In this document: positions 61,071-63,225 of the stretch, one piece after another
How positions within the stretch are numbered: the first letter of the stretch is position 1
Layout of the letters: each line of letters starts with the position of its first letter
Assembly (NCBI GenBank): GCA_022841375.1
Contig: JALHRQ010000008.1
Location: 104,769 to 168,768, forward strand
DNA length: 64,000 nucleotides
DNA from: Burkholderiales bacterium
Lineage (GTDB): Bacteria > Pseudomonadota > Gammaproteobacteria > Burkholderiales > SG8-41
Reading direction: 5' to 3'
The notes under the pieces: generated by a model
What the model was told of the DNA's origin: nothing
The model's database searches: none
The model's input: only the letters and a program-made list of their open reading frames with translations
Made by a program: the position numbers and the translations under genes

Positions 61071-61373
61071 TTACGTTTCAACGGCCTCCGTATGCAGCTT
61101 CAAGCCCAACGCCTTGCACACCTTCATCACCGTCGCGAAACTCGGATTTCCTTCCGGCGACAGCGCCTTGTACAACCCCTCGCGGGTGAGGCCGGTGTCG
61201 CGCGCGAGTTGCATCATGCCGCGGGCGCGGGCGATATCGCCAAGCGCGCCGATCACCAGCGCCGGATCGCCATCTGATTCGTCAATCGCCGCCTGCAAGT
61301 ACAGCGCGCATTCCTGCTCGGTTCTCAGATAAGTCGCTGCGTCATAAGGGCGTGTAGTCAGTTTTTTGGCCAT
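61071..61373 (-). CDS. HigA-like antitoxin (XRE type)
   Basis: A 100-aa protein with the addiction-module antidote pattern: ECALYLQAAIDESDGDPALVIGALGDIARARGMMQLARDTGLTREGLYKALSPEGNPSFATVMKV, where the helix-turn-helix is the ARDTGLTREGLYKAL region. It would bind the toxin and repress the operon. The toxin gene lies immediately upstream with a 9-base gap, in the HigB-HigA order. Confidence 0.87.
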   Translation of the reverse strand: MAKKLTTRPYDAATYLRTEQECALYLQAAIDESDGDPALVIGALGDIARARGMMQLARDTGLTREGLYKALSPEGNPSFATVMKVCKALGLKLHTEAVET

Positions 61374-61382
61374 GATGAGCTC

Positions 61383-61691
61383 CTAGAGCATGCGCGCCAG
61401 TTTCAGCGCGGTTTTGATGTCCTTGTCCTGCGTCGGTTTGGCGCCACCGGCCAGCAGGATGACCAGCAACGCGCCGCGCTTGACGAAATAAACCCGATAA
61501 CCGGGGCCGTAATCGATACGCATCTCCGAAACCCCTTCGCCCACCGGTTTTACATCACCGGGGTTACCGTAGCGCAGACGGAGAATCCGCGCCTGCACCC
61601 GCGTTCGTGCGCGGGCATCGCGCAAGGACTCCAGCCATGTGGAGAATTCCTGTGTTTCGCGGATTTCGATCACCGGCGTAGTGTAATCCAT
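61383..61691 (-). CDS. RelE/ParE-superfamily toxin (HigB-like)
   Basis: A 102-aa small basic protein: EFSTWLESLRDARARTRVQARILRLRYGNPGDVKPVGEGVSEMRIDYGPGYRVYFVKRGALLVILLAGG is the killer-protein family pattern, with the conserved YRVYF strand. Relatives cut mRNA on the ribosome. The stop lies 9 bases before the antitoxin start, indicating one operon. Confidence 0.88.
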   Translation of the reverse strand: MDYTTPVIEIRETQEFSTWLESLRDARARTRVQARILRLRYGNPGDVKPVGEGVSEMRIDYGPGYRVYFVKRGALLVILLAGGAKPTQDKDIKTALKLARML

Positions 61692-62524: not shown

Positions 62525-63118
62525 TCAGCGTTTGTGCTTGCCGACCGACCAGCCGTGTTGCGTGATGTGCTTTTCGGCTTTTTCGATGGGATGATCTTCC
62601 AGCGGGGTGGCCATGGTGTCGTTCCACCGGTTCATGAAACCGAAGTACGAAATCAGCGCGGTAATCTCGACGATCTGGCCTTCGTTCCAGTGTTTTTTCA
62701 TATGCTCGAACAGTTCGTCGCTGACATCATTGGGCTGCGACGCCGCGGCAATGGAGAACTCCAGGGCGACACGTTCCGCCTCGCTGAACAGCGGGCTGGT
62801 GCGGAATTCCCATACTTTTTCGAGCTTTTCTGCCGGTATGCCTTGCTGGAGGGACCCCCCAGCGTTGTGCGCCATTCAGTAATGGCAGCCGTGCGTGCGC
62901 GCCACCACATAGGCGAGCAGCCGCTTCAGGCCCAGCGACACTTCACCTTCGGCATCGAACACGGCGGCGGACAGGCCGCGCAACGCCATCACCAGCTTGG
63001 GCTTGCGCTGCATGATGAGCTGGCTGTTGGCAACATAATGATTGGCAGCGAGCTGCTTTTCGAACATCTCTTTCAGTTCCGGTGCTGCGCCGATGGGCAG
63101 CGGTTCAAGTCTGGCCAT
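62525..63118 (-). CDS. AhpD/CMD-family protein with in-frame TGA, candidate selenoprotein (CxxU)
   Basis: One frame runs from ATG 63118 to the stop at 62525 (197 residues) with a single in-frame TGA at 62876-62878. Before it the sequence reads RTHGCHY and after it MAHNAGGSL, so it is the AhpD/carboxymuconolactone-decarboxylase signature GCxYCxAHN with the second cysteine codon replaced by TGA. Both halves continue the family pattern (LKRLLAYVVARTHG before; SEAERVALEFSIAAA after) with no frameshift. AAGGAAAG precedes the ATG. A 19-base hairpin begins 12 bases after the TGA. CxxC or CxxU is the redox site of AhpD-like proteins, which reduce peroxides or act as disulfide reductants. The alternatives are a nonsense mutation or reinitiation at the ATG after the TGA. 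Conventional callers would split this gene into two. Confidence 0.66.
62845..62863 (-). promoter_or_regulatory. Candidate bacterial SECIS hairpin
   Basis: On the minus strand GCTGGGGG and CCTCCAGC-like arms pair over eight base pairs (one G-U) around a GUC loop inside GGGGUCCC. It starts 12 nt after the TGA and its loop is about 21-23 nt after it, within the spacing known for bacterial SECIS elements, and it contains the apical GGUC found in E. coli fdhF. No bulged U is evident. Confidence 0.5.
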
Positions 63119-63225
63119 TGCTTTCCTTTGATCAGAGGGGTTGGGACGGTGGAACGAGGGTCAGCTTACAGCATTAGGCCGTGACGATTCCCAAGGAGTC
63201 GTGAGCAAACAAGGTGAAGGTGCCG

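Follow-up and report, generated by a model that had tools for sequence, protein, structure and literature searches.

Selenoproteins of the AhpD-like and CMD-like type, in which selenocysteine (Sec) occupies the second position of a CxxC motif (CxxU), were first described from Sargasso Sea data, published in 2005 (PMC1088965), and appear again in passages of later studies (PMC2398784; PMC9312934; PMC13188914). For betaproteobacteria, the relevant passage of a 2006 survey counts a single selenoprotein family, FdhA (formate dehydrogenase; PMC1794560). The model of the bacterial selenocysteine insertion sequence (SECIS) describes a stem of 4–16 bp and a loop of 3–9 nt with G in its first two positions, located 16–37 nt from the UGA and with a minimum free energy at or below -7.5 (PMC13188914). 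Here, an AhpD-like gene is described from a 64-kb stretch of contig JALHRQ010000008.1 of a Burkholderiales bacterium (hereafter the window, meaning the whole stretch that was analysed). This gene is very probably translated through an in-frame TGA into a 197-residue CxxU selenoprotein, likely a selenol/thiol oxidoreductase, because the TGA stands at the second Cys of its relatives, a conserved hairpin follows it, and selA, selB, tRNA-Sec and selD are present in the genome.

The position of the gene had been given correctly in a preliminary description of the locus, which left the strand (minus) unstated (Table 1). The frame consists of an ATG and 79 further codons, an in-frame TGA, 116 codons and a terminal TGA. 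The only internal TGA is codon 81 and falls on the second Cys position of a C-H-Y-C motif, giving GCHY-U-MAHNAGG. With the TGA read as Cys, the whole protein belongs to the Pfam CMD family (PF02627; 34.1 bits against a cut-off of 23), and it is predicted with high confidence to adopt the all-helical AhpD/CMD fold (AlphaFold model with a mean predicted local distance difference test score of 94.2). As the preliminary description had claimed, the TGA of the read-through frame coincides with the family's second Cys: the position is Cys in 49/49 database homologues of one alignment, selected from 120 listed, where U is written as C and a Cys row could conceal Sec. Alignment of an in-frame TGA with a redox-active Cys of homologues is one of the marks of bacterial selenoprotein genes.

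At the DNA level, 97 distinct copies covering codon 81 were compared, pooled from loci in genomes of the same bacterial family, where 55/74 genomes yield matches at E values of 1e-15 or better, and from 44 loci found in a scan of named genomes. Codon 81 is TGA in 58 of them, TGC in 21, TGT in two, a Ser codon in 14 and another codon in two; TGA is therefore conserved more than by chance. The six closest copies (88–95% identity) all keep it in frame, and none of them has the TGC or TGT that the preliminary description would have counted against Sec. Furthermore, the nonsynonymous/synonymous rate ratios in seven comparisons are 0.02–0.16 before the TGA and 0.04–0.13 after it. Both halves are thus under purifying selection, and the part after the TGA, earlier said to continue as conserved sequence, is protein-coding and constrained. 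That an ordinary Cys gene suffered a nonsense mutation or was misread in sequencing, an explanation raised when the locus was first noticed, would require a single TGC to TGA change in an assembly of 66 contigs. Recurrence of the same TGA in 58 distinct copies from several dozen assemblies, the selection acting on both halves and a hairpin preserved where codon 81 is TGA but not where it encodes Cys or Ser leave this explanation with next to no probability.

An order-wide search returned 34 matches in 25/399 genomes at E 1e-40, with TGA in 28/34, no stop in 5/34 and three other stops in one (G219), which may be a decayed copy. One candidate, L141 (G050:C19:16581-17156, 40% identity), was rejected as a TGA copy, its TGA lying elsewhere and ACG standing at the codon-81 site. 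Three of the metagenome bins that contain relatives (L059, 78% identical; L070; L095) are titled Bordetella parapertussis, a species label that looks doubtful.

Twelve nucleotides after the TGA begins a 7-bp stem closed by a 5-nt loop, GGUCC in the window. The preliminary description had proposed a SECIS check at this place, and the hairpin fits the published model in every respect (7 bp, GGUCC, spacing of 19 nt, -15.6 kcal/mol over 45 nt; PMC13188914); in a single-sequence fold an eighth pair is added and the loop becomes GUC. Pairing was counted in the 97 copies after leaving out three rows of less than 43% identity. On average, 6.78 of the seven stem pairs form in TGA genes (n=58), as opposed to 3.05 in Cys genes (n=22) and 3.0 in Ser genes (n=14). 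All seven are present in 48/58 TGA genes, and G is present in the first two loop positions in 58/58. Codon choice follows the same pattern. Of the 57 TGA genes with Gly at the sixth place after the TGA, 56 encode it by GGG or GGA, which make up 24% of Gly codons elsewhere in TGA genes; Leu at the ninth place is encoded by CTC in 57/58 (31% elsewhere). When synonymous codons were resampled, 4.10 +/- 0.12 pairs formed, with a maximum of 4.52 in 2000 rounds compared to 6.78 observed, and at most four genes had all seven pairs compared to 48 observed. On 50 distinct rows, 96.6% of cells pair, both partners have changed in three of the pairs, and a covariation score of 0.240 compares with 0.171 +/- 0.008 in shuffled alignments; stems slid from their place pair at 60.3% or less. 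The Cys/Ser control alignment is 43.3% paired and has no excess. Conservation of the hairpin is seen in the TGA genes and is absent from those with Cys or Ser.

The machinery for Sec insertion, whose absence would have spoken against a selenoprotein according to the preliminary description, is found in the same assembly (4.08 Mb, 66 contigs, 99% complete), which contains selA, selB, selC and selD, the genes required for bacterial selenoproteins. SelA, SelB and tRNA-Sec (75.9 bits against a cut-off of 47; anticodon TCA by ARAGORN) lie within ~5 kb on contig C3. SelD, on contig C15 (L019, G000:C15:11228-12157), has an in-frame TGA of its own at HGGG-U-GCK and is likely a selenoprotein itself, fitting the UxxK pattern that a passage of PMC9312934 lists for SelD. 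A second Sec-AhpD paralogue of the same genome (L106, G000:C11:66136-66717) is 60% identical and has TGA at the same site. The search for selenoproteins in this genome covered CMD proteins, PrdB-like proteins and molybdopterin enzymes; since the matched stretches of all nine molybdopterin-enzyme matches are free of in-frame TGA, the Sec machinery may be kept here for AhpD-like proteins and SelD. Read-through of the TGA with another amino acid, by near-cognate suppression or a code change, is hardly credible: the gene's own terminator is a TGA, the genome has a dedicated tRNA-Sec, and Cys or Ser stands at the site in 37/39 copies lacking TGA.

SelA is nearly universal in the window's bacterial family (67/74), so that co-occurrence there does not discriminate, and the genomes of the scanned loci were used instead (39 genomes, from 39 of the 44 loci). 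L060, L068, L083, L086 and L095 were left out because their assemblies, judging by accession prefix, were already covered. SelA occurs in 24/25 of these genomes with a TGA gene at the locus, as opposed to 4/14 with Cys and no TGA (Fisher p 1.5e-5, uncorrected for relatedness). The sole exception among those with a TGA gene is locus L052, whose contig matches one from the 84% complete genome G019.

Several observations weigh against a selenoprotein or temper the support for it. Besides the high frequency of SelA in the family, two genomes with TGA genes have no SelA hit, namely G019 and G059 (88% complete), probably due to incomplete assemblies. The resampling null counts related genes as independent, and further pair types are no more frequent in the stem than in shuffles (5 vs 5.1). 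Taken by itself, the hairpin folds with unremarkable energy (z -1.08), 28/200 shuffles being as good. Mean synonymous-shuffle z values of TGA and other genes are -1.06 and -0.59 over 45 nt, and -0.80 and -0.58 over 54 nt; mean fold energy over 54 nt is even slightly better in Cys/Ser genes (-19.43 kcal/mol) than in TGA genes (-18.18 kcal/mol). Fold energy is a weak test, and reliance is therefore placed on paired positions, codon choice and covariation. Rfam has no match in the window, where SECIS_1 (RF00031), silent in control genomes too, is uninformative on bacterial SECIS elements. Finally, the support is at the level of sequence, from which we infer selenium incorporation, the protein and its biochemical role. 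The earlier proposal that the TGA encodes Sec in a CxxU redox protein is nonetheless supported jointly by the machinery, the conservation of the TGA and the hairpin.

Gene callers would split such a gene at the ATG that follows the TGA, as had been anticipated, and the databases bear this out. The 116-residue C-terminal frame as query retrieved 1132 proteins at E 1e-10; among 120 listed matches, 116 are 105–132 residues long, and 113 of these 116 begin with MAHN at the protein level, as would result from a gene call at the ATG that follows the TGA. One of them, P0125, is an NCBI hypothetical protein of Burkholderiales bacterium. Many database proteins thus look like the C-terminal 116 residues of the window protein, an annotation gap in which databases seem often to hold such selenoproteins only as a truncated piece. 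Taken at face value, these entries are what would be expected if translation gave two short proteins, an N-terminal one of 80 residues and another of 116 residues initiated anew at the internal ATG. This reinitiation, already considered in the preliminary description, is very unlikely because a Shine-Dalgarno-like site precedes the true start and none precedes the internal ATG (by eye, in the window and 11 relatives), and because Met82, encoded by that ATG, is present in Cys homologues as well (C-M-A-H) and looks like an ordinary residue. A split would also separate both active-site residues, and the conserved hairpin would have no reason.

Evolutionary changes at the site were followed in a tree of 118 rows (92 DNA copies and 26 of the 120 database proteins), built by a quick method with residue 81 masked. 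In this tree the residue switches between Sec, Cys and Ser eight times. The Ser copies fall into a single group (support 100), and the DNA-verified Cys rows all lie outside the fork with Sec and Ser rows (SH-like approximate likelihood ratio test 94, not starred). For the DNA rows, the simplest reading of these sequences would be one change from Cys to Sec, followed by a duplication and one change to Ser. Fourteen Cys rows are nested in the Sec group; all are database proteins without DNA, where U is written as C, and reversions from Sec to Cys are not claimed on their account. If real, they would represent additional Sec to Cys changes. The Ser paralogues (L119-L121, L124-L133 and L135; 14 copies) have AGC, TCG or TCC at the Sec/Cys site and no hairpin, and SelA is found in 10/13 of their genomes.

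Table 1. Features of the predicted selenoprotein gene in the window.
Feature	Coordinates	Strand	Basis
Predicted selenoprotein gene, 197 residues including Sec81, CMD/AhpD fold	62525..63118	-	Read-through translation, PF02627, AlphaFold, PDB match Bmp8
Predicted Sec codon TGA, codon 81, second position of the CxxC motif	62876..62878	-	TGA in 58/97 distinct homologous copies
Cys78 codon, first position of the CxxU motif	62885..62887	-	Sequence; invariant in 50-row alignment
Bacterial SECIS-like hairpin, 7-bp stem, 5-nt loop GGUCC (62852-62856)	62845..62863	-	Pairing, covariation, fold energy
Terminal TGA, presumably ordinary stop	62525..62527	-	Sequence
Shine-Dalgarno-like AAAGGAAA ahead of the start ATG	63122..63129	-	Visual inspection of upstream regions in the window and 11 relatives

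In the mechanism envisaged, SelB and Sec-tRNA would decode the TGA via the hairpin, Sec81 would act as the attacking residue, and Cys78 would resolve it as a selenenylsulfide that a thiol donor then reduces. The oxidised substrate may be an organic hydroperoxide, a partner protein carrying a disulfide or selenenylsulfide, or a halogenated aromatic. The last of these would be as for the debrominase Bmp8 (PDB 6ohi, 6ohj), the closest solved structure both by sequence (E 4.8e-24) and by fold. Bmp8 carries out thiol-dependent debromination of bromopyrrole, and its mechanism is reportedly likened to that of human thyroid deiodinase, a selenoenzyme.

The other neighbouring frames of the window gene occur in none of the 25 largest clusters listed from 28 other loci, and these frames were therefore not used to infer function. 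Among the frames of the window is a small pair at 61071-61691 on the minus strand that resembles a toxin-antitoxin module, with a Gp49-like protein (22.4 bits, below the cut-off of 23.9) and an HI1420-type antidote protein.

In relatives, a recurring PrdB-like neighbourhood provides a testable lead on the role of CxxU AhpD-like proteins. There, a PrdB/GrdB-type gene that also contains an in-frame TGA lies next to the Sec-AhpD gene (L063:1726-2967; also L073, L074, L075, L076, L083 and L086). It matches Pfam GRDB at 32.4 bits (cut-off 22) and the PrdB model TIGR04483 at 102.6, below the cut-off of 300, and has TGA at the UxxC site (UPNC) in 7/7 loci examined. PrdB-like matches at E 1e-30 are found in 48/74 genomes of the family (60 matches, 58 with TGA and the other two partial). 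Same-strand pairs of TGA AhpD and PrdB-like genes within 2 kb number 15, in 11 of the 31 genomes with both genes; G051, whose PrdB-like match is split in two, accounts for four of the pairs, and the gap is 117 bp or less in 10/11 genomes. For the AhpD genes of adjacent pairs, TGA at codon 81 was confirmed at the DNA level; the TGA assigned to the distant matches (three in G057, one in G050:C126) may lie at another codon, and for L141 the assignment is wrong. Four more pairs (G009, G011, G014, G027), one with a gap of only 33 bp, have an AhpD gene without TGA, so that AhpD genes of the Sec form are not the only ones paired in this way. An extra stop or a broken frame occurs in some of the PrdB-like copies (G014, G073, G018:C13, G051), perhaps due to assembly error. 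The AhpD neighbour belongs to the window gene's own clade in four genomes (G051, G054, G062, G065), and L063, a contig equal to G054:C20 in length and gene content, contains three consecutive TGA genes, AhpD - PrdB-like - AhpD.

What lies beside the gene in some relatives speaks for a PrdB/GrdB-type selenoenzyme as the partner. A tentative extension, which we hold to be possible and rather less than probable, is that AhpD-like CxxU selenoproteins and a PrdB/GrdB-like UxxC selenoenzyme form a two-part redox system of these betaproteobacteria. The AhpD-like protein would be a dedicated electron donor and the PrdB/GrdB-like enzyme would reductively cleave a carbon-nitrogen or carbon-halogen bond; the fullest form would be the AhpD-PrdB-AhpD arrangement of L063, with the window gene in the clade of one such subunit, and the window's genome would have lost or never had the PrdB-like half. 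That the window protein acts alone instead, as an AhpD-type peroxidase or a Bmp8-type reductive dehalogenase, has roughly an even chance and concerns its role only, leaving the selenoprotein prediction unaffected. The window's own genome has no PrdB-like match at E 1e-30, and in 20/31 genomes with both genes these are not side by side within 2 kb. The proximity to Bmp8 agrees with such a role, whereas the identity to Bmp8 of only ~28–30% and the TGA AhpD gene beside a PrdB-like gene in 11 genomes speak against it.

Compared with described systems, the window gene adds to the CxxU AhpD-like selenoproteins already published, and it extends the known selenoproteins of betaproteobacteria by a well-supported group beyond the formate dehydrogenase counted in the passage of the 2006 survey (PMC1794560). 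With the AhpD-like selenoprotein (COG2128/TIGR01926), as characterized in passages of PMC1088965, PMC9312934 and PMC13188914, it shares CMD/AhpD-type sequence, Sec at the second position of CxxC, a bacterial SECIS after the TGA and widespread Cys homologues; this published class was compared by description, and against the TIGR01926 model (peroxidase-related enzyme) the window protein scores 49.3 bits, under the cut-off of 81.8. Likewise, the CMD-like selenoprotein (PF02627), in the passages describing it (PMC1088965; PMC13188914), combines CxxU with a Pfam CMD match above the cut-off, as the window protein does; the reference sequence of that class is MBW1767730.1. The best NCBIfam match, NF053654 (GroundWater_YciW, YciW-related (seleno)protein; residues 14-172), reaches 84.7 bits against a cut-off of 310 and marks a relative, not that equivalog; the window protein stays below the cut-offs of the named NCBIfam subfamilies. 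Bmp8 has the same fold with a CxxC site, and it carries Cys at both motif positions where the window protein is predicted to have CxxU, dehalogenation being here only a possibility. In the operons listed in PMC13188914, which include grdA-grdB and prdB-prdC, and among the neighbouring selenoprotein pairs listed in PMC2398784, the passages concerned do not name an AhpD/PrdB pair, nor was it mentioned in the literature passages found on selenoproteins, PrdB and AhpD. The grdA-grdB and prdB-prdC operons, as that passage of PMC13188914 presents them, place a CxxU protein next to a UxxC selenoenzyme of GrdB/PrdB type, and relatives of the window gene do likewise; in these the CxxU partner is AhpD-like, not GrdA or PrdC, and the window copy stands without such a neighbour.
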